DNA of 20,671 nt from a virus. The notes beneath the pieces are model-generated. The model searched no databases and was not told where the DNA came from. It saw nothing but the letters and a program-made list of their open reading frames with translations. Within the stretch, counting starts at the first letter, position 1, and each line of letters opens with the position of its first letter. The stretch is taken from positions 1 through 20,671 of the IMG/VR virus record IMGVR_UViG_3300028025_000548. The stretch is one strand, 5' to 3'. Positions 3,815 through 14,956 of this stretch are shown in pieces. The position numbers and the translations under genes were made by a program.

Positions 3815-5965
3815 TTATTCCTTGTTAGCCATGCCCGATAAATCAATTTTTACGGGTTTTGGGGGTTTACCTAAGTCTGAGAGTTTAGTGCCAGCGCCAG
3901 GCTTTAAAGATTCCTGAGTTTGCTTTGCAGCTGCTCTGCTGGCCAACGCTTCACGGGTCATTGTGCCAAGTGGTAACACGCCAAAACCCGCCACATTACC
4001 CGCTTTTTCTAAACCGCCCTTTGCCATTTCTTTAGCACCCGCCACAAATGTGTTGGATTGGTTGACGTAGCTTCCACGGGGTTGTGCTTGTGTGTACCTA
4101 GACACATTACCTAAAGCCCGTAATTGTTGGGCAGTCTCACCGTCAACCAATTCCAACAGTTTAGGGTCAAGTTGTCTAAGCGCTTTGTTATATCCCGCTT
4201 GGCTAAAGTTACCGTTATCGTTTATGACACCAGCTTTGTCTTTAAGATAGTTCACCACAGCAGCAGACACGGCTTGATGGCCTTCTGAGCCTTTACCAAG
4301 TTGTGCAGTCAATGCTTCCAAATCACGCTTGTTTCCACTAATAATGTATTTGTTGATAAATTTATCGGGGGCTACATCATTAACCGCAGCGTCATAGGCG
4401 GGGTCTTTCTTGAGCAAATCAAACCTAGCTTTAGCGGCATTTCTAGCCTCGTTTGCCAATGGTTTAAGCGCTTCTGCCTCACCAAACAACGGTAAATCCT
4501 CTAAAGCCTGTCTAACAAGGCTTGATGCTGTCTTAGTATTTCCGTCGCCAGCTTTTTCTGCCTTACGCATTTCTGAAGCCAAATTAGTTCTCATGGCCTC
4601 AAATTGCTCAAAAGTCATTGCTTCGCCATTTTTGTATCGCTCTAATTGTTTGGCAATAGCGGGGGGCACAAAATCTGTCTTGAGTTTTTTGCTTAATAAA
4701 CTTTCGGCATTTGCAACAAATTGTTTTCCATCAATAGGGAAGTTACCGCCAGCGGCTTCCTCTAACGCTTTGTATTTGGCAGAAATGTCAGCAGTTCTTG
4801 TGTCATCAAGTGCTTTATAAGCGTTGATGATTGTGTCAGCATTTTCAAGATGATTTACGCCAAATACATCAGGGGCTGCTTTGTCCCTGATAGCATTTAT
4901 GTTTTCAATCAATTTGCCGTTTTGCTCATTGAAACGATTTGCCAATTCAGGGGTTTTGCCCCTCATGTTCATTTCGTCAGATAACAAATTAACGTCTTGA
5001 GTGGCTTGACCACGGGTCAGGCGAACTGGCACAGGCAACGTATCAGCCTCAACATGGCGCTCAAGGGCGGGCATATTAAACTGATTCATTGGTGTGGAAC
5101 GAATTTCGTTTTGCAGTTCAGGGCTTACTTTGGCAAGCATTGCGTTAATGGTTGCTTGATCAGTTGTAGCCGCAGCGCCAGCGCTTTGCTTACCGCCTCT
5201 AGCCTCAAACTGTCTTTGTATCTCTAGTTCGCCAACACCAAGTTGTTTGCCAATAGCGCTAGGTATTTGTCTGCCAGCTTGACCAATGGCTTGTTGTGAT
5301 TGTTGACTAGCAGGGCCAGCTAACGGTGCAAACCCCATAACTTCAGGCACACCAACGGGCGGTAGCTTGCTTGCTTCAAATGCACGTTGCATATCTTGCA
5401 CATACTGCTGACCTTGCGCTGTACGGGGTTGGTAAGTACCGCCCTCTTGAAGCCTACGGGCCATGTCTTGACCCGCTTGAATGCCTTGTTGAGTGCCGTA
5501 TTGACCGCTTGTCATTGTGCCAACAATTCCACCAAGGGCGCTTACAGGGGCGGCAACGCTACCAGAAAGGGCGGTTAACCCTGCCTCACCAGCGCCCACA
5601 ATTTTTTCGCCTAAAGCCCGTTTGCCCTCTTGCAATTTGTTGTAGAACTGAGCCGCCAAAGGCAGTTCATTCTTTTTCTCAGCCTTTTTTTCCTCTTGCG
5701 TTTTAGCAGCAGGGGTTGTTTCCCAAAGATCAGCCAATGTTTGACCACTAGCTTGTGTGGGTTGTGTTGTTGGTTGTGGTGTAGATTGAACTTTACCACC
5801 CATTTCACGGGTCAATGCGTTAATGTCGCTTTGCGCCCTTGGATCGCCTGATTGCAAGCGTTGCTGTGCTTTGGTCATCTCGTCTTGCAAGATAGCCATG
5901 CGGTCAACCTGACGGTTTTGTGCCGTTGCGGGGGCGGCATCCCAAAGTTCAGCAAGACTAGCCAT
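3815..5965 (-). CDS. Putative internal virion / DNA-ejection protein (716 aa)
   Basis: This large, mostly helical, glutamine- and alanine-rich protein has no enzyme motif that I can see. A short motif is duplicated at the N-terminus: SLAELWDAAPA (3-13) and TLADLWETTPA (76-86), separated by a charged helix and a low-complexity PQPTTQPTQ linker. Residues about 121-152 are hydrophobic and glycine-rich (IVGAGEAGLTALSGSVAAPV), suited to membrane insertion. The remainder is long amphipathic helices with polar linkers. Being the third of three large genes between the tail-stump genes and the tailspike, it occupies the place of P22 ejection proteins gp7, gp20 and gp16, which pass through the tail into the host envelope. 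The role is inferred from context and composition. Its start overlaps the previous stop (TAATG). Confidence 0.6.
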   Translation of the reverse strand: MASLAELWDAAPATAQNRQVDRMAILQDEMTKAQQRLQSGDPRAQSDINALTREMGGKVQSTPQPTTQPTQASGQTLADLWETTPAAKTQEEKKAEKKNELPLAAQFYNKLQEGKRALGEKIVGAGEAGLTALSGSVAAPVSALGGIVGTMTSGQYGTQQGIQAGQDMARRLQEGGTYQPRTAQGQQYVQDMQRAFEASKLPPVGVPEVMGFAPLAGPASQQSQQAIGQAGRQIPSAIGKQLGVGELEIQRQFEARGGKQSAGAAATTDQATINAMLAKVSPELQNEIRSTPMNQFNMPALERHVEADTLPVPVRLTRGQATQDVNLLSDEMNMRGKTPELANRFNEQNGKLIENINAIRDKAAPDVFGVNHLENADTIINAYKALDDTRTADISAKYKALEEAAGGNFPIDGKQFVANAESLLSKKLKTDFVPPAIAKQLERYKNGEAMTFEQFEAMRTNLASEMRKAEKAGDGNTKTASSLVRQALEDLPLFGEAEALKPLANEARNAAKARFDLLKKDPAYDAAVNDVAPDKFINKYIISGNKRDLEALTAQLGKGSEGHQAVSAAVVNYLKDKAGVINDNGNFSQAGYNKALRQLDPKLLELVDGETAQQLRALGNVSRYTQAQPRGSYVNQSNTFVAGAKEMAKGGLEKAGNVAGFGVLPLGTMTREALASRAAAKQTQESLKPGAGTKLSDLGKPPKPVKIDLSGMANKE

Positions 5966-7467
5966 TATTTAATAATCCCCAACATTTTTGCTTCTTGGAT
6001 TTTCTTGCTCATGTCTTTAATGTCTTGTGCAGACATAGAAGCCTTGAGTTTGGCAACCTGTTCAGGGGTCATTTCTTGGAAAATTCTAGGATCAGCAAAT
6101 CTATTAAACAATTGTGATTTTTCCTGATACTTTACAGGATCATTGCGAAATTGTCCTAAATAATCAGCACGTTTTTCTTTTAATCTTTCCACACCAATCA
6201 TTTGGTCTGAAACTTCTTTGATAGCTTGCAAAGTCATCTTGCCACTTGGGTTAGCAATCTCTGCCATAGCCCTAGCCGCATCAGTATTACCACCCGCCAA
6301 AGCCAACAACCGTGTGTTCTTGGCCAATTCGTCTGTGGCGGTATTTTCAGCCGTATAAGCATCAATTCCCGCTGCATTCAAAATGCCCGCTGCCAACTTC
6401 TTACGCTCTGCACCAACACCCGTAAAACCTTCAGGTGCAATCTTTTTAATGTTCTGAAAGATGGCAATTCTTGGTTGTGCTTCTTTTGAAGCGTTATAAG
6501 TATCTTGCCAATCTTGGTTAGCAATGGTTGTGTTTGCACCAATCGTGCTTGCTATTTGTGGCGCAAGACCCGTAACCATTGGCGCTTGTTGTTTAGTAGC
6601 AGCAGATGGAGGAATGTAAGTAGTTCCAACAGGCAAACCATAAGGATTACCTTCTGTAGCCACTTGGGGTTGACCTGGCCCAATCGTCAAAGGCTCTGCA
6701 CGACCCGTCATGCTTATGCTTGGCGCTTGTCCTGTGATGCCTTGAGGCGTTGTCAAAGTTTCTTTTAACTCACTGCCAGTAGGAGTCAAACTTACTTTTT
6801 GTGCAAACTCTTGACGTTGTTGTGGAATAGACAATAAAGATGCAGATTCAGCAAGCAAATCTTTTGTGATGTTTGGGCCAGCTTGGGCTTGCTTGAGCAA
6901 ATCAATTCTTGCATTGATCATGCGTTCCAAAGATGTGTTATCAGGGTTGTTTTTAATCAATCCCTCATACACTTTAATTATTTGTTTTGGATCGTTAACA
7001 CCCATCAATCCTAATGAATGATCTGTGTTTCCAATAATAGTTCTCTCAGTTTGCGTTAGTGCTTGTTTGGCACTAGCCGCCTCAGTTTGGCTTTTATGTA
7101 ATCCACTCAATGAACTAATCACATCAGAGCCTGTCAACGGTGCAATCTTTGGAATGGCCGAATTGATCTTGTCCATGTCAATGCGGCCATTGGTCTGCCA
7201 GTTTGTTGGATTGCTAGTGAACTCTTGCAGTTTTAAACGCTCATCATTCTTTTGACGCAAAACTTGATTTTCAATTTGCTTTTTTTCTAATTCCAAAGGA
7301 TTTAATTGTCTTGCTTGCTCGACTTCCTGTTGCGCTTTTTGCAAAACCAAAGGATTCATCTTTTGTGTTTGCTGATAGTTCTGAATCCCAGAAGCCATGT
7401 TCACCATGTCCCCTAGACTTGTAGTCTGGGGTTTTTGGTAATTTACGTTCATTGAAAAGTCAGCCAT
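5965..7467 (-). CDS. Putative internal virion / DNA-ejection protein (500 aa)
   Basis: This 500-residue, glutamine- and asparagine-rich protein has an N-terminal region (about 25-90) that reads as a long coiled coil (QKMNPLVLQKAQQEVEQARQ and on). The middle (about 225-300) is a proline/glycine/threonine-rich low-complexity stretch. The C-terminal half is helical (GFTGVGAERKKLAAGILNAAG; DAARAMAEIANPSG; MTPEQVAKLKASMSAQDIKD). It has no recognisable catalytic site and no signal peptide. Helical proteins of this composition between tail and lysis genes of podoviruses are usually ejected with the DNA, and I infer that here. AAGGAT lies seven bases before the ATG. The stop overlaps the next start (TAATG). 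I cannot say which P22 ejection protein it corresponds to. Confidence 0.6.
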   Translation of the reverse strand: MADFSMNVNYQKPQTTSLGDMVNMASGIQNYQQTQKMNPLVLQKAQQEVEQARQLNPLELEKKQIENQVLRQKNDERLKLQEFTSNPTNWQTNGRIDMDKINSAIPKIAPLTGSDVISSLSGLHKSQTEAASAKQALTQTERTIIGNTDHSLGLMGVNDPKQIIKVYEGLIKNNPDNTSLERMINARIDLLKQAQAGPNITKDLLAESASLLSIPQQRQEFAQKVSLTPTGSELKETLTTPQGITGQAPSISMTGRAEPLTIGPGQPQVATEGNPYGLPVGTTYIPPSAATKQQAPMVTGLAPQIASTIGANTTIANQDWQDTYNASKEAQPRIAIFQNIKKIAPEGFTGVGAERKKLAAGILNAAGIDAYTAENTATDELAKNTRLLALAGGNTDAARAMAEIANPSGKMTLQAIKEVSDQMIGVERLKEKRADYLGQFRNDPVKYQEKSQLFNRFADPRIFQEMTPEQVAKLKASMSAQDIKDMSKKIQEAKMLGIIK

Positions 7468-7476
7468 GATTTATCC

Positions 7477-10470
7477 TTATGTCGCTTTGATCAAAGAGCC
7501 AAGCAAAGCTGTATTGCCAAGGTTGCTTAACGCTGTTGCATTGGTTGCACCCGCTGCTGAAGCATTGCTTGCCAAAGCACCCGCAAGACCAGTTGCAAGG
7601 TTAGCGGAATTCAAACCATATACGTTTGCGGCATTCATGCCAGCGCCCGTGTTTGTTGTTAAGTTGTTAGCAAAGTTGGTTGAACCACCTAACAAATTAG
7701 AACCGTATTGGTTGTAAGCGCCTTGCATCGTGTTGGCGGCATTGACAACATTCCCCGCATAATTAGTTGAACCACTTGTCAAATTGCCACCGTACTGGTT
7801 GTAAGCGTTTTGCAGTTGGTTGGCATTGTTAACAACATTACCACCGTATGCAGTTGAACCGCTAGTTAAATTACCACCATATTGGTTATAGGCATTTTGC
7901 ATAGTGTTGGCGTTGGCAAGCACGTTACTTCCATAAGTATTAGCGCCACTTGTGACATTGCTTCCATACTGGTTGTATGCGCCTTGTAATTGACCAAGGT
8001 TAGATGACAACACATTGTTTAAGTTATTGACAACACCCGCTGTGTTAGAGCCGTAAGCATTACCAGCGCTCAACAAATTGCCTGTATTAGACGTAAGGTT
8101 GCTTCCAAGATTAGATGACAATCCAGCCATGTTAGAGCCGTATGTATTACCAAGACCAGCCAATTGACCCGCTGAAGTTGTACCAATATTAGCCATTCCC
8201 GCTAATGTGGAATAGATGTTTTGACGTTGTGTATTAAAGTTGTTAAACGCATTCTGATAAGCACCCGATGCATAGTTTTGGGTGTAGTCTTGCAAACCCT
8301 TCAACGCATTACCGCCTAAACTACCACCGCCCATGTTGGCGGCACGTTGGTTAGCCATTTGGCCTTGTTGCAGTTGGAATGCGTAGTTGGGGGCTAACTG
8401 TTCATTTAGATCAGAAGCGCCAAACTGACGGGTCAAATAACCTTGATTGTCAATCAGACCTTGTGAACCCGCTTTACCAACAGCTTGATAAGGTTGCTGA
8501 TAACCAACTTGTTCATCATAAACGTTACCCATGTTAGCAAGGGTAGCGTTGTAGTTTGCATTTAAACCAGCCGCATTTGCTGCAGCTTGTTCTTTTTGTC
8601 CTGTGTAGGTGCTACCCAACAAACCTAATTGCGTTGTAGCGTTTTTATTGATGCCTTGATTAGCAAGGTCATAGGCGGTTTTTTGGCTTGCTAATGTGTT
8701 ACCTAAATTAGCGTTTAGATTTGCATAATTGTTAGCTAAATTTGTATTTGTTGCATTAAAAACACCCGTTTGATTAGTTAAAGTGTCGTTTAACTTGGTG
8801 TTTAAATTTGCATAATTGCTAGCTAAATTTGCACCAGTTTGTTCAGCTACTTTTGCTTGTGCATTTAAAGTGTTATTTAAATTAGTATTTAAATTTGCAT
8901 AGTTACTAGCTAAACCTGTATTTGTAGCGTTGTAAATGCCACTTTGCTTATTTAAAGCATTATTTAAATTTGTGTTTAAATTTGCATAATTGTTAGATAA
9001 ATCTGTGCGCCCAGAAGCATTCAAGGCTTGTGCATCTGTGTATGCTTTAGTTAACGCTGCGTTAGCTGTTACACCGCCCGCTGTGATTGCGTTTCTAGCA
9101 TCAGTAATGCCTTGTTGATTTACGGCTGCACTTGCTATATCGGTTACAGCTTTTACAGTCAATCCTGTGGTAAGCGCAGTAGCCGCTGCCGCTGCTGCTG
9201 CATCTGCGGCCGTTTTTGCTGTGGCTGCCGCTGCTGCCGCATCTGCTGCGGCTTTTGCATTTGATGCATCTGCTGCGGCTTTAGCGGCTGCGGCATCTGC
9301 TGCGGCTTTGGCTGCTGCTGCGTCTGCGGCTGTTTTAGCTACTGCATCTGCGGCTGCATCTGTAGTCAATCCTGTTGTTGCACCTGTAGTGTTTACGCCT
9401 GTTGTCACAGCGCCACTATTTAAACCTGTCAGACCTGTGGTAACGCCTGTATTCAAAGCACCCGCACCCACATTAGCGGCATTGGTTAGACCTGTAAGGC
9501 CACCAGTAGTTGCGGCTGTGTTAGCGCCTGTACCTAACAGAGTTGTTCCCAAGTCAGAACCTGTCAACACGCCTGTGTTTGTTAATCCTGTTGTGCCTGT
9601 TGTGCCAAGCAAACTTGTGCCAAGATCAGAACCCGCCAAAAGACCTGTGCCTGTCAGACTTGCAAGGCTTGTTCCAGAACCAAGCAAACCAGTTCCTAAA
9701 GTAGAACCCGCCAAAACGCCTGTGCCTGTTAAACCGCTTCCCGCTGTGATACCAGACCCCAATGCATTAGCACCAAGACCCGCACCCGTACCCAATGCAC
9801 CGCCCGCATTTAAACCAAGACCTGAAGCACCAGCGGTTAGTCCTGTACCCGCACCCATGCCCGCTACAGCCCCTTCAGTACCTAATGCACCCAAAGAACC
9901 AAGAGTAGAGCCACCCGTTGCGCCAGCGGCTGATCCAGCTGCTGATCCAACCGCACCTGTTCCACCAAGCAATCCACCCGCATAAGCACCGCCTAAAGCG
10001 GCCAAAACTACAGGGTCTTTGAAAGCATCTACTAAACCACCAAAAAATGATTGATCTTTTTTAGTTTTAACTGTATTTATAAACTGACCATCAGCACTAT
10101 ACATTTGCACTGGTGTGCCAGCAGGGGCTTTATAGTTAACATCACCATTAGACTTAGATGTTGCAAAACCCTCAAGTGCGCCAACTTGCTCGTCCATACC
10201 AGAACCACTTGTTTGGTATTGAGGAACAATAACAGTATCGCCAAGAGTTGCTGAAGAACCTCGGGGAATGGTAGCGGCAGCTCTAGCCAAAATTTGTTGT
10301 TCTGGAATTTGAGCGACCCTAGACATTTGAGAAGGCGAAATTCCACTACTCTGCATTAACTGAACGATTTGAGAATCATTCATGTTTGGATTAGCCAACA
10401 ACTTACTTACAACTTGTTGATCTGTTAACCCAATGGTTTTGGTAACTAATGAATTTACTAAATTGTCCAT
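7477..10470 (-). CDS. Giant repeat-rich DNA-transfer/ejection protein (997 aa)
   Basis: Domains in order: a helical N-terminal region (1-70); a beta-like segment with a YKAPAGTPVQMYSADG motif (113-128); a glycine-zipper-like hydrophobic region (about 153-245); three LAGS.LGT.LLG repeats of about 25 residues (250-315); an alanine-rich rod (371-432, AADAAAAKAAADA type); a first 29-residue array (491-635); a conserved core (about 650-770; VYDEQVGYQQPY, APNYAFQLQQGQ, NMGGGSLGGNALKGLQDYTQ, RQNIYSTLAGMA); and a second 29-residue array (774-947). The core resembles phage proteins annotated as DNA-transfer or internal virion proteins. The flexible, almost cysteine-free, hydrophobic and helical build fits a protein that unfolds, leaves the capsid and reassembles as a conduit in the envelope. 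A tape-measure-like role is less likely, as no long-tail genes appear. Confidence 0.65.
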   Translation of the reverse strand: MDNLVNSLVTKTIGLTDQQVVSKLLANPNMNDSQIVQLMQSSGISPSQMSRVAQIPEQQILARAAATIPRGSSATLGDTVIVPQYQTSGSGMDEQVGALEGFATSKSNGDVNYKAPAGTPVQMYSADGQFINTVKTKKDQSFFGGLVDAFKDPVVLAALGGAYAGGLLGGTGAVGSAAGSAAGATGGSTLGSLGALGTEGAVAGMGAGTGLTAGASGLGLNAGGALGTGAGLGANALGSGITAGSGLTGTGVLAGSTLGTGLLGSGTSLASLTGTGLLAGSDLGTSLLGTTGTTGLTNTGVLTGSDLGTTLLGTGANTAATTGGLTGLTNAANVGAGALNTGVTTGLTGLNSGAVTTGVNTTGATTGLTTDAAADAVAKTAADAAAAKAAADAAAAKAAADASNAKAAADAAAAAATAKTAADAAAAAAATALTTGLTVKAVTDIASAAVNQQGITDARNAITAGGVTANAALTKAYTDAQALNASGRTDLSNNYANLNTNLNNALNKQSGIYNATNTGLASNYANLNTNLNNTLNAQAKVAEQTGANLASNYANLNTKLNDTLTNQTGVFNATNTNLANNYANLNANLGNTLASQKTAYDLANQGINKNATTQLGLLGSTYTGQKEQAAANAAGLNANYNATLANMGNVYDEQVGYQQPYQAVGKAGSQGLIDNQGYLTRQFGASDLNEQLAPNYAFQLQQGQMANQRAANMGGGSLGGNALKGLQDYTQNYASGAYQNAFNNFNTQRQNIYSTLAGMANIGTTSAGQLAGLGNTYGSNMAGLSSNLGSNLTSNTGNLLSAGNAYGSNTAGVVNNLNNVLSSNLGQLQGAYNQYGSNVTSGANTYGSNVLANANTMQNAYNQYGGNLTSGSTAYGGNVVNNANQLQNAYNQYGGNLTSGSTNYAGNVVNAANTMQGAYNQYGSNLLGGSTNFANNLTTNTGAGMNAANVYGLNSANLATGLAGALASNASAAGATNATALSNLGNTALLGSLIKAT
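7630..8151 (-). repeat. Six tandem 87-bp units coding 29-residue repeats (array 2)
   Basis: Residues 774-947 of the 997-residue protein repeat every 29 residues with no gaps. Units start GNTYGSN, GNAYGSN, YNQYGSN, YNQYGGN, YNQYGGN and YNQYGSN at residues 774, 803, 832, 861, 890 and 919. A seventh weak unit (ANVYGLN) starts at 948. Within each of the stronger units a second tyrosine motif (TYGSN, AYGGN, NYAGN) lies 15 residues after the first, so the unit is a 15+14 half-repeat. The middle four are most alike in DNA sequence as well, suggesting recent unit expansion. Confidence 0.9.
8566..9000 (-). repeat. Tandem 87-bp units coding 29-residue repeats (array 1)
   Basis: Residues 491-606 hold four strong units, each starting L(S/A)(S/N)NYANLN and continuing with TNLNNTL-like residues, at residues 491, 520, 549 and 578. 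A fifth, diverged unit (INKNATTQ) starts at 607, exactly one period later, and the next period falls on LNANYN at 636. The sequence is unlike array 2 but the period is the same 29 residues (87 bp), with no indels. Twenty-nine residues is eight turns of an alpha helix, so a long straight helix or helical bundle is a reasonable structural guess. Confidence 0.9.
9175..9360 (-). repeat. Alanine-rich rod coding repeat (TolA-like composition)
   Basis: Residues 371-432 of the 997-residue protein are about two-thirds alanine with regularly spaced Asp and Lys (AADAAAAKAAADA type). The DNA shows matching short repeats of gctgcggc and ctgctgccgc type. This predicts a long rigid helix, as in TolA-type rods. 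The base composition is richer in GC than the rest of the gene because of GCN codons. It probably bridges the hydrophobic N-terminal half and the 29-residue arrays. Confidence 0.8.
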
Positions 10471-10483
10471 GACTTAAACTTTC

Positions 10484-10723
10484 TCAAACATTGTAGTAAG
10501 GCACTTTGTAAGCCTGACCATTTACTGTGACATTGATAAACCCAACGGGGTTAGCTGGAAGCGTTGCAGACCCTGCCGTTGCAGTATCAGCAGAACTAAA
10601 ATTCAACAAGTTAAGAAAGAACTGTTGCCAAGATCGTGTAGGACGATTAGTCGCCCCATCCAAAAAAACTGATTGTGGATAAGGATTTATCTGCTGTGTG
10701 GTTGAAAGTCCAGAAGTAGCCAT
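10484..10723 (-). CDS. Small virion-associated-type protein
   Basis: This 79-residue protein begins with a polar segment containing NPYPQSVFLDGATNRPTRSW, which reads like a peptide-binding or capsid-docking region. It continues with a short helix (QFFLNLL) and ends with ANPVGFINVTVNGQAYKVPY. The closing pattern (G.I.V.VNG...K.PYY) recurs in small proteins of many phages encoded among virion genes; its structure is probably a small beta domain. Its ATG overlaps the stop of the gp10-like gene (TGATG), and 13 bases separate it from the ejection gene. A minor virion or assembly role is inferred from position; there is no firm function. Confidence 0.5.
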   Translation of the reverse strand: MATSGLSTTQQINPYPQSVFLDGATNRPTRSWQQFFLNLLNFSSADTATAGSATLPANPVGFINVTVNGQAYKVPYYNV

Positions 10724-12723
10724 CAGTTTTCTGCCCCTTGTACTTTAAGATTTGCCGAAATAATGACAAAGTTCACAGGATCACTTACCGAAACTTCAAA
10801 AATTCTGTCACGGGCTGTTCCTAATCTGCGCCAAATAGCACGATTAGTGTATTTACCAAGTTGACCCACGCTTGTCCAATGCTCGTTTGACCATGTAGAA
10901 CCACCATCATTTGACCACCTTAGCATTGCTTGAGGGTTGTTTGTGGTTGAAGTTATTACAGGTTGCTGAGTCGCCAAAATGTAAGTCTTTTCAGGCTCGA
11001 TGGTTAAAGTTGCACTTGCGGTAATGGTGTAATTATCGCCCAAATAAATGGTGTTTGTAGTGTCAACTTGTGTAGCGCCAGAAATGCCCGTTGTGCCTAC
11101 GCCTGGCTGAAACTGAATCTGCAATTCATCAAAATACTGACGCTGAAACTCAGTCACCAAGTGTGGCGCTCTACGCAATCTGCGAATGTTTTGGCCATCG
11201 TCTGTGTAATTGGTTTTGTCCAATTCGTACAGTTTGCCGTTTTCATAGTCACCAACAATGACCAATCCTTGAAACACAGCACAGCAATTACCACGGTGAC
11301 GCTGATATTCGTTGTTGTCTGTTGTGTAAAGCCACTTGTGCCACATGGCTGTGGTTGCGTCATAAGCCCATGTCAATTCCAAAGATGGGAAAGTGACAAC
11401 AAAAACCTCATGGCCTTCTAACTGATAAGTCCAAGAAATAGCATCGCCAACATATTTATTGACTAAAGTGTTTTCAACAGCATGGGTAGAAATGCGTTGT
11501 GGAACGTATCCTTGCATTTGCATGATTTGGGATTGACCACGGTTGTTACGGGAAACGTAAGCAAATGAGTTACCAAGTCGAGAAATGGAGAACGGTGCAG
11601 CAATACCGTGTTGGGTAGAAGTGCCAGGAATTCTCTGGAATGGAAACGGCACAGCGCCTACATCAGTCCATACTTCTGAGGAAATCTCACCCATCAAATA
11701 AATTTCACGGTGATCCACAATCAAAGCCACCAAATCATCTGGTGCGCCATCTTTTAGTGAAAAACTTAGTGGGGGTGAAATAGGCGACAAAAGGTCACTA
11801 GCGCCAAATTGCTGAGTCGTTGGGTTGTTATAGACAAAGTAGTTGTCAATAATGTCCACCGTGTTTGCACCGCTAAACGCACCATCAGTAGATGGCAAAA
11901 CAGAGAAGTTCAAACCATACATAGTCACGCCAACGGCTACGGTGCTTGACACGCTTAACGTGTAAGTTCCAACACCGCCTGATCCCGTACCCAAAGCCGT
12001 AATGATTGTGCCAATGGTTACGCCAACGCCACTAATAGTCTGACCAACATGTAAAACGCCTGATGCAACCGCAGAAACAGTCATTACCGTCCCTGCAATA
12101 GTGGCAGTCACCACCGCACCAACCGTTGCAGAATTCAACACCGCTGTTGCAACAGTCTGGCTTCTGTTAATTGTGTATGTACCAACACCGCCAGTTCCTG
12201 TGCCAAGCGCAGTAATGACGGTTTGTGGCAATACGCCAATGCCATACAAAGATTGTCCAACAGCAATCGTGCCACTAGAAACGCTTGCAACAGTTAATGT
12301 TGTGCCACTTGTAGAACCCGTAAACACAGCCGCAGCTGGGCTAGATATATACCATGTGTAACGATAAGCACCGTCCACAATGTAAACATTCACCCCGTTG
12401 TCAGTAATCCTAACTATTCCTGTACTGGAATTAAGTTGGCCAATCACCGCAGGGACAAAATTGGCTGTAAGCGCATAGACGTAAGGCCCACAAACGGCAA
12501 TCATTTGCTCACCGCCTGACACGGTATGAAGCCCACGCACCTCTTGTAAATTGGGCAACAAGGCTTTTAGCGTTAGACCTGGCGTTGGGTAAAGCGCAAT
12601 TACCCCACGCTCACCTTGTTGTTTTACAGGGTCAACTTCTGGAAAAAAATTGATGCACTCTTGAGCATCCTGATAGATGCTTGGTGCTTCATAAGACGAA
12701 CCAACAAAACCAAAATCTGGCAT
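10723..12723 (-). CDS. P22 gp10-like packaged-DNA stabilisation / tail hub protein
   Basis: The 666-residue protein closes the tail channel below the gp4 ring and holds the packaged DNA in P22-like phages. Family features are the start with [21 protein letters not shown] (residues 9-29), the central [20 protein letters not shown] (296-313), [16 protein letters not shown], and a strongly conserved end ([37 protein letters not shown]). These strands fit a beta-propeller-like fold. Residues 131-268 are an extra insertion made of two copies of a beta-rich module, making the protein longer than P22 gp10 (about 470 residues). The sequence reads naturally if the insertion is removed (TWYI joining [11 protein letters not shown]). 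It is nine bases downstream of the gp4-like gene. Confidence 0.85.
11920..12333 (-). repeat. Two tandem beta-rich modules inserted in the gp10-like protein
   Basis: Copy 1 is residues 131-197 and copy 2 is residues 203-268. Both follow the pattern G..LTV..V.SG...VGQ.L.G.GV..GT.ITALGTG.GGVGTYT followed by an S.TVA tail. The 14-residue core ITALGTG(T/S)GGVGTY differs at a single position between the copies. Each copy is about 66 residues. The high threonine, glycine and valine content predicts an all-beta domain, probably displayed on the surface of the tail. The DNA copies have diverged at many third positions, so the duplication is not very recent. Confidence 0.85.
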
Positions 12724-12732
12724 GGTAGCCCC

Positions 12733-13713
12733 TTAAACAAAGCCGCCAGTAAGAATCCATCCCGCATCCTTTGCCCTACCCGTCTGCAAAGCGTCAGGGT
12801 AACGGGCTACGGCAAGCGGGGCCATGTTTGTGCGTTTGATGGTAGCTTTAGCTTGCCCTGCAAACGTCTGAATCATTTGTATTTGCGTTGGTGAGGCTTT
12901 GCCATACATAGGCATCAAACGCTCGGCCAAACACCATCTAAGGCACATTGCATAGCCTTGTGGAAGTGTTATGTCCTCATACATTGAGTTGTAACGGCTA
13001 AACAAAGTATTGGCAAACAAATGCAGTTCACCTTGTGATGGGCTTGGCCACACAAACAAGTTACCTGAGTCTGAGCCAGCGTTAAAGTAAACCGCCTTTG
13101 GCCACGGGCCACTTAGCGTTTTTAAACCAATCATTTCGTAATCTTGCAAGGCAAGAACAGACATTGGGTAGTCCAAACCACCGCCCGTAATAGGCTGGCC
13201 ATTAGACGTAGTGTTTACCCTAACAAACGCAGAATCAAGGTTTAAAGGCTTTTGGTAGTAAGCCGTTATGGTTGTGGATGCAACAGTCTGATTGATGTTG
13301 ACTTGGTAAGTGCCTTCCTCATTGATGTTGCCACCAGCACCTGTCAAAAACTGAGTAATCTTTGTTCCAGCGGTTATGCCTGTGCCACTTAAAGTTTGAC
13401 CTTGAGCCAAAGCACCAGACAAGATGCCTGTCACGGTCAAGATATTTCCTGTTATTGAGCCTGTAAAAGAAGCGCCAATAAAGTTCTGAGTAGAGGGATT
13501 AGGGCCAATCGTGTATTGAGTTTGGCCAGGTATCACAGGGCAAATGATTTCTGTGACATTGAAAACCATCATGTTTTCATTTGACCATTGGTCAATCATG
13601 TCATTCATCATTTCAAACGCATCTAATGCTGCGTCTGGGGTTGGAGTTTCACCAGCTTCCAATGCACCAATATCTTTTAGCGCTCGGCTAACAATGTCAA
13701 AAGGCACAGCCAT
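12733..13713 (-). CDS. P22 gp4-like tail accessory factor
   Basis: This 326-residue protein belongs to the family that forms the ring joining portal to tail in P22-like phages. Diagnostic parts are the N-terminal [20 protein letters not shown] and [20 protein letters not shown] (residues 8-48), the strand QTQYTIGP, then [32 protein letters not shown] and the helix [16 protein letters not shown], ending in a basic region. P22 gp4 is about 166 residues, but longer relatives are common. Residues 79-151 are an inserted copy of the beta-rich module also found in the neighbouring gp10-like protein; it interrupts the join between [11 protein letters not shown] and [12 protein letters not shown]. Nine bases separate it from the gp10-like gene. 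Confidence 0.82.
13261..13479 (-). repeat. Beta-rich module inserted in the gp4-like protein
   Basis: Residues 79-151 follow the module pattern seen twice in the gp10-like protein: [12 protein letters not shown], then [20 protein letters not shown], then [10 protein letters not shown], and [17 protein letters not shown]. This copy has a small extra NINEE loop before GTY. It lies between the N-terminal helices and the rest of the gp4-like fold and can be removed without breaking the family pattern. Presence in two adjacent tail genes suggests module spread within this genome or separate acquisition. Confidence 0.8.
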
Positions 13714-14034: not shown

Positions 14035-14252
14035 TTGATCACCGCTGTTGATGTTTCTCTATCAAGTGTCAAAGTGCCGTTGCAAGCAATGTTCCAATCA
14101 ACACCATCAGTTTCATCCCAAATTGGGGCTTCAATTTTGATGTGCTTGACAAGATATTCCTTATCACCTTCAAACACACGCCAAACATGATCCATTGAAC
14201 CTCTACCCTCTTGACCTCTGCTTTTGTTAAAGCGAATCAAGAATTTGCTCAT
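14031..14252 (-). CDS. Small conserved-type phage protein
   Basis: The 73-residue protein starts MSKFLIRFNKSRGQEGRG, followed by MDHVWRVFEGDKEYLVKHI and a strand-rich end (DWNIACNGTLTLDRETSTAVI). The body looks like a single small alpha/beta domain. Near-identical patterning of the start and end is familiar from marine and freshwater phage proteins of unknown role, sometimes encoded near 2-oxoglutarate oxygenases or tail genes. It is coupled on both sides by ATGA overlaps, to the oxygenase upstream and to the next small gene downstream. I cannot assign a function. Confidence 0.55.
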   Translation of the reverse strand: MSKFLIRFNKSRGQEGRGSMDHVWRVFEGDKEYLVKHIKIEAPIWDETDGVDWNIACNGTLTLDRETSTAVIK

Positions 14253-14956
14253 ACGATTTCAGCCGCTGGCGCAGGGCAACTTTGTTGTTGCAAAATAACA
14301 GTTAAATTAAAGTGAACAAATTTTATTGGTTTGTCAGAGGCGTGACGGGTAAATGCATGGGCTAACCATGAATTTGCAAAAATCATCATGCCTGGCTTTG
14401 GCTCAAAATTGATCATTTTGCTTGCAGGGGTTGCCATACTCGCATCATTTTCGGGCAAATCTATTTGAACTTTTGCGGCTCTTGGATCGTGAAACACAAC
14501 TTTAGAGCAATTTTCTGGTGTTTCAAGAAAATAAAAACCAACAATTTGAGAGCCAAATCCATGCACATGAGCATCCATTGCAGAATGCTTGTAATGTTCT
14601 TGTGTCCACATTTCTGTAAATTGAACTGCTTTATCTTGCATGGCATACCCTTGTTCATTAAGAATATTCCATGCAGTTGCACCAACAAACTCAGAAAATT
14701 TAGCTAAACGTGAATCGGCATAATAATTGCCACTCATGTAAACAGGGTAAAGGTCATCTAATTTACGATCTTTACGTTGTATTTCTAAATTTTCTTCAGA
14801 AACAGCATTTACTGAGTCTAAAAAATCGGGACGGTCAATAATGTAGATTGGACAAGGAAAATGTAATTCAACTTGCAATAGCGTGTTTTGCACAACTTCT
14901 GCCACTTGTTCAGCAGCGTGACACACCTTTAACTTTTTAGAAATTACTTTTGACAC
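14249..14956 (-). CDS. 2-oxoglutarate/Fe(II)-dependent oxygenase
   Basis: This 235-residue protein has the double-stranded beta-helix pattern of the phage oxygenase family modelled by TIGR02466. The putative iron ligands are His130 and/or His132 in MDAHVHGFGSQIVGFYFLE, and His200 in IFANSWLAHAFTRH. FHDPR (155-159) is typical of the family strand after the first ligand. Lys212, in KPIKFVHFNL, stands where the 2-oxoglutarate-binding basic residue (usually Arg) is expected. Such enzymes couple oxidative decarboxylation of 2-oxoglutarate to hydroxylation of a substrate, unknown here. The start is GTG, supported by an AAGGA ribosome site seven to eight bases upstream. The gene lies inside the virion operon and is coupled by ATGA to the next gene, so a virion protein, DNA or a metabolite could be the substrate. 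Confidence 0.78.
   Translation of the reverse strand: MSKVISKKLKVCHAAEQVAEVVQNTLLQVELHFPCPIYIIDRPDFLDSVNAVSEENLEIQRKDRKLDDLYPVYMSGNYYADSRLAKFSEFVGATAWNILNEQGYAMQDKAVQFTEMWTQEHYKHSAMDAHVHGFGSQIVGFYFLETPENCSKVVFHDPRAAKVQIDLPENDASMATPASKMINFEPKPGMMIFANSWLAHAFTRHASDKPIKFVHFNLTVILQQQSCPAPAAEIV

Follow-up and report, generated by a model that had tools for sequence, protein, structure and literature searches.

The 997-residue product of a gene at positions 7477-10470 (minus strand) can be read as an expanded ejection protein of the P22 gp7 type, in which two repeat arrays form the arms of one antiparallel helical hairpin that is probably part of a DNA conduit. We assign this reading a probability of roughly 0.7. 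The stretch of DNA analysed here, referred to below as the window, is a virus record of 20.7 kb; its minus strand carries the late genes of a P22-type podophage. Both arrays consist of 29-residue units, and the number of units per arm (n) changes among the relatives of the protein, always by the same amount in both arms.

Gene organization and parts of the probable ejection protein

The gene of the ejection protein was identified by a match to phrog_598 and by way of relatives without repeat units (n = 0). Upstream of it lies the gene of a head closure protein Hc3 of the P22 gp10 type (10723-12723, minus strand; phrog_578, E 1.4e-96). The next gene (5965-7467, minus strand) encodes 500 aa and the following one (3815-5965, minus strand) 716 aa; by gene order these would occupy the slots of the second and third ejection proteins, gp20 and gp16 in P22, respectively. 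No profile match was found for either of the two products. The window reads in the order Hc3, three large genes in ejection order (997, 500 and 716 aa), a collar/fibre gene and the lysis genes. The 500-aa gene starts nine bases past the stop of the ejection gene (spacing 7468-7476), and almost all relatives are alike in this spacing at any arm length.

Several parts could be distinguished in the ejection protein, all encoded on the minus strand. The N-terminal part (residues 1-432; 9175-10470) has a conserved start, followed by a low-complexity stretch rich in Gly, Ala and Thr. Half of residues 166-432 (9175-9975) are Gly and Ala, and an Ala-rich stretch of the AAADAAAAK type is located at about residues 370-432. 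An N landmark, or anchor (residues 433-461; 9088-9174), is in register with the 29-residue frame and precedes the N arm (residues 462-635; 8566-9087), which consists of six units, of the types c, b, b, b, b and a when read towards the core. The conserved core (residues 636-773; 8152-8565) has 138 positions and carries the predicted hairpin tip; this tip or turn, containing LAPNYAFQLQQGQMANQRAANMGGG, was placed at approximately residues 675-718 (8317-8448) by homology with the structure model of a relative with n = 2. The C arm (residues 774-947; 7630-8151) again has six units, of the types x1, x2, y, y, y and z from the core outwards, with no charged residue in the protein of the window. It is followed by the C landmark, or anchor, and the C terminus (residues 948-997; 7480-7629).

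Some features of the neighbouring genes and of the relatives were also recorded. The head closure protein has two copies (residues 127-197 and 200-266) of a domain of about 70 residues that is common to phrog_38233/21413, and one copy (residues 80-148) is present in the adjoining 326-aa protein (12733-13713, minus strand). Head closure proteins of the relatives measure about 661-666, 752-753, 841 or 928 aa; in the longer ones a second detectable domain copy lies further along, so that either the number of domains or an insert between the copies varies. A gene for a 2OG-Fe(II) oxygenase-like protein (14249-14956, minus strand; PF13759, phrog_81) lies among the structural genes. Two relatives of the ejection protein, L029 (ORF from 5587) and L076 (ORF from 5188), have an additional C-terminal part with a 'RMKENIEFVEQT.NGINIY.FDYKPEF' stretch, which resembles a tail-fibre intramolecular chaperone domain joined to the ejection protein; matches in BFVD, too, bear names of the intramolecular chaperone or tail-fibre type.

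Relation to the P22 gp7 family

The only PHROG matched by the protein of the window was phrog_598, annotated as 'DNA ejection', with an E-value of 1.3e-4 over residues 621-827 and positions 21-220 of the 240 in the profile. Relatives with n = 0 gave E-values of 5e-22 (L233) and 6e-16 (L062) over nearly the whole profile. These contracted relatives match phrog_598 much more strongly than the protein of the window, so that intermediates carry the family assignment, which would be weak if taken from the window protein alone. P22 gp7 itself belongs to phrog_598 (2e-95). A direct hhalign comparison of the family profile with P22 gp7 alone gave nothing, and the comparison with gp29 of Rhodoferax phage P26218, a member of the same PHROG (phrog_598), was positive at 98%. 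No PHROG match was obtained with the n = 2 region alone.

The gene order fits the gp7 type as well, the gene standing between head closure (gp10) and two larger ejection genes, in relatives that carry a P22-type portal. This portal (PF16510, E down to 2e-180) was detected in 16 of 24 related records, of which the other eight may be partial. The protein is probably an expanded gp7-type ejection protein, and its role in packaging or ejection is predicted from sequence.

Two repeat arrays with a period of 29 residues

The earlier note on this DNA had described two unlike arrays that repeat exactly every 29 residues, without indels, around a conserved core, and this description could be confirmed. 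Identity at lag 29 amounted to 43% in residues 480-640 and to 55% in residues 770-950, far above all other lags that are not multiples of 29. In both reported arrays 29 was the best lag, with z values of 10.2 for array 1 and 15.3 for array 2. Across 2000 shuffles, z never rose above 4.3 and 4.7, respectively, whatever the lag. At the DNA level, TRF detected a period of 87 at 8692-9006 and at 7679-7911, corresponding to the same arrays, and no indel was present in either of them.

The limits proposed in the note for array 2 (774-947) stood, and those for array 1 (491-635) proved to be one diverged unit short. The additional unit, residues 462-490, is the only one present in relatives with n = 1, which made it recognisable; the true start of array 1 is residue 462. 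As corrected (462-635 and 774-947), the arrays have six units each and are both exactly 174 residues long. Within an array of the window the units share about 49-77% identity in DNA; they have thus diverged, which points to an old repetition kept at the protein level and not to a recent tandem duplication. A 15+14 half-repeat, which had been proposed for array 2, was rejected: identity in the C arm was 0.13 at lag 14 and 0.15 at lag 15, no better than at lag 11 (0.19), as compared with 0.56 at lag 29.

Equal arm lengths among the relatives

Arm lengths were taken as the distances from the N anchor to the core and from the core to the C anchor, using landmark and core profile models that were built without the window. 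Besides the protein of the window, the sample contained 60 from IMG/VR contigs, giving 61 distinct complete proteins; nearly all relatives are encoded on metagenomic contigs. In all 61 proteins the N distance was equal to the C distance, to the residue. The arms measured 29 residues in 28 proteins, 58 in nine, 87 in 12, 116 in eight, 145 in two, 174 in the window and 232 in one, i.e. 29n residues with n = 1-6 and 8. All proteins with a core score above 200 bits were equal-armed, barring ORFs cut by a contig end, and two further scans, which added more distant relatives, brought no exception. In more distant relatives the landmarks directly abut the core on both sides (n = 0), as seen by eye in L062 and L393. 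A scan of genome_contigs yielded three distant relatives, located in metagenome-assembled Methylococcales and Pseudomonadota bins, and the phages collection contained only distant relatives of the protein.

Five candidate exceptions were rejected. In L178, which seemed to have a repeat on one side, the source of the 29-residue signal was a proline-rich segment lying outside the arm; L369, another candidate for a one-sided repeat, is cut by the contig end, and L012, L014 and L313 are cut ORFs as well.

Several identical proteins were found on separate contigs, among them the protein with n = 8 on three contigs, which makes an assembly error in repeat number less likely. According to a tree of the core, n changed at least 17 times and the match between the arms was kept in every protein; many branches of this tree are weakly supported, and if recombination carries core and arms together, paired insertions may have arisen independently less often than 17 times. 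Close relatives differ in n, the window (n = 6) standing beside L003 (n = 4) and L004 (n = 3) in the tree. The earlier note had regarded relatives with different, non-matching periods as an argument against its proposal; in the relatives compared, both arms share the 29-residue period. Its suggestion that one structural template constrains both arrays was strengthened, the two arms being always equal in unit number. The simplest such template would be a single hairpin with the arrays antiparallel, rather than matched rods from several copies.

The types of the units also correspond between the arms, running outwards from the core in the same order in both. The N unit nearest the core, a, goes together with the C unit x2: 23 proteins have both of them and 37 have neither. 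The remaining, distant protein L076 has x2 without a, a weak assignment at 41% identity. In L018, n = 3 is reached by an extra b and an extra y, both middle units, in a protein without a and x2. This pattern, a single case, is the one expected for paired insertion at equal hairpin height.

Helical character and structure models

Bulky hydrophobic residues peaked at the eighth harmonic of 29, with 38% and 47% of the power in the two arms (permutation p about 0.0005), and the arms can therefore be described as nearly straight helices with 3.625 residues per turn. Among the 8004 residues of the pooled arms there was no proline, and 0.1% of the residues in the pooled C arms were charged. Asn, Gln, Ser and Thr make up 45-47% of the arms, and Gly and Ala 27-29%. 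For the n = 2 relative, AlphaFold2 predicted a helix at 2-126, a tip and a helix at 171-329 (pLDDT 69, pTM 0.40). The model of the window protein has long helices at 88-242 and 287-461 (pLDDT 67, pTM 0.26); confidence was moderate, and the window model by itself is no proof of contact between the arms. The idea of long near-straight helices of matched pitch, raised in the note, is borne out by the harmonic peak, the lack of prolines and the long unbroken helices of the models. At 1.5 Å per residue, the helix on the N side would extend from landmark to tip over about 100 Å for n = 0, 360 Å for the window and 450 Å for n = 8.

The solved shapes closest to the n = 2 model were cytoplasmic hairpins of chemoreceptors (Z 11.5-11.9 over about 300 residues, rmsd 8-9), followed at lower ranks by SMC and Rad50 coiled coils and other long helical hairpins; a Z of about 12 may, in the case of a helical rod, reflect nothing more than a common arrangement. 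Among viral proteins, some of the models matched in structure bear the name 'DNA transfer protein' (E 1.5e-5 and weaker). Foldseek found nothing in the PDB with E under 0.001 for the n = 2 model, the window model gave middling matches only in VIA-align, and a sequence search of the PDB revealed no significant relative. In the searches made, no structure of any gp7-type protein was found. Literature searches returned nothing relevant on tandem repeats in ejection proteins and nothing on periodic SMC arm lengths.

A probable hairpin of stepwise length and its possible role

The results are best explained if the two arrays are antiparallel arms of a single long alpha-helical hairpin whose tip lies in the conserved core. 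Each arm unit of 29 residues would make eight helical turns and span about 43 Å at 1.5 Å per residue. Such a rod could gain or lose whole units without an altered packing register, provided that the unit count is equal in both arms, and it would be lengthened through paired insertions, one per arm. The hairpin is probably part of a trans-envelope DNA conduit, a role suggested because of the homology to gp7 and the gene order. Several hairpins might bundle into a helical tube, and the charge-free C arm would suit a surface along which DNA passes. Six gp14 molecules lengthen the tail channel of T7 so that it crosses the outer membrane (PMC11784390), and gp7 is listed as gp14-like in a review (PMC8954989).

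Little is understood of how podophage ejection proteins make a conduit that has a suitable length. It is a tentative proposal, and one we hold to be somewhat doubtful, that n acts as a viral length ruler which sets the length of a conduit segment in steps of about 43 Å, and that phages adapt to different host envelopes by changing n in both arms together. The natural series of arm lengths allows a direct test of conduit length against n. Among the relatives, the lengths of the 500-aa and 716-aa neighbour genes, considered as length partners, do not follow n, and neither does that of the head closure protein. The part before the N landmark, considered as a compensator, varies widely in the complete relatives (about 40 to 900 residues) and is likewise unrelated to n.

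The length of the hairpin could instead be tuned to the interior of the virion, where it would have to pack near the portal, and not to the host envelope. The ejection proteins of P22 are indeed located near the portal barrel before ejection (PMC8402733), but the portal ORF measures 696-697 residues where complete, in phages with n = 1 to 5, so that n does not track portal length, and we regard such tuning as unlikely.

The equality in length alone does not tell which chains touch. With about 12 copies of the protein expected (PMC8402733), the arms might be unpaired within the chain, each spanning the same two planes, e.g. two rings of a tube, or each pairing with a neighbouring copy. This arrangement seems quite improbable to us, as only a short core separates the arms, the chain doubles back in the n = 2 model, and insertions appear to lie equally far from the core in the N arm and in the C arm; the informative exception in this last respect is one protein.

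Equal arms might also be merely inherited, if whole hairpin cassettes carrying a small number of ancient paired insertions were exchanged by recombination, without ongoing selection for matched length. Phage genomes are mosaic, the arms flank the core in such a way that one exchange can move both, and the numerous weakly supported branches of the core tree would agree with this. Seven values of n in addition to n = 0 were observed, however, with close relatives differing in n, and crossovers inside the repeats would yield unequal arms unless these were selected against. Unequal arms were seen in 0 of 61 proteins, for which the 95% upper bound is about 5% when the proteins are treated as independent. 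Inheritance of this kind is thus a poor explanation in our view.

The notion of low-complexity, disordered Asn/Ser/Gly-rich repeats without a structural role and with coincidentally equal numbers, for which the composition of the arms might speak, is scarcely credible and in its simple form is refuted by the exact equality of the arms, which, moreover, are free of indels and prolines and carry a hydrophobic stripe of eight per 29 residues.

Among these readings we favour the antiparallel hairpin, which is supported by the equality of the arms and by structure models of moderate confidence. The exact co-variation of both arms over n = 0 to 8 is strong evolutionary evidence that the arms form a hairpin and that its length changes by fixed increments.

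Comparison with known systems

The protein of the window is like the P22 gp7 family in its match to the profile through the core and in its gene order, with head closure followed by three ejection-type genes. P22 gp7 differs in having 229 residues and no repeat arms, as against two times six units and an N-terminal part of 432 residues here. T7 gp14 (phrog_805) is alike in gene slot and in the role proposed for gp14-like proteins (PMC8954989). By sequence it falls into a different PHROG, T7 gp14 matching phrog_805 and the protein of the window phrog_598 only. We know of no repeat arms in T7 gp14.

In chemoreceptors (MCP), length classes of the cytoplasmic hairpin arise via symmetric insertions and deletions of heptads, according to the work of Alexander and Zhulin as cited in PMC5907407. 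The likeness to the protein of the window lies in equal insertions in both arms of an antiparallel hairpin, a predicted one in the window, and in a conserved tip. The unit of the MCP hairpin is seven residues, in contrast to 29 here (eight turns with 3.625 residues per turn), and a receptor is compared with a viral protein that is probably injected. The two have no sequence relation, and a Pfam search of the window protein gave no family, hence no MCP match. When the MCP criterion of symmetric changes in heptads is applied, the symmetry is found in 61 of 61 proteins, but in units of 29 residues, not 7. The protein is therefore MCP-like in one respect, the symmetric insertions in its arms, and is not a member of the MCP family. 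Symmetric hairpin insertions are already established for chemoreceptors, and the same principle is found here with a 29-residue unit in an unrelated protein.
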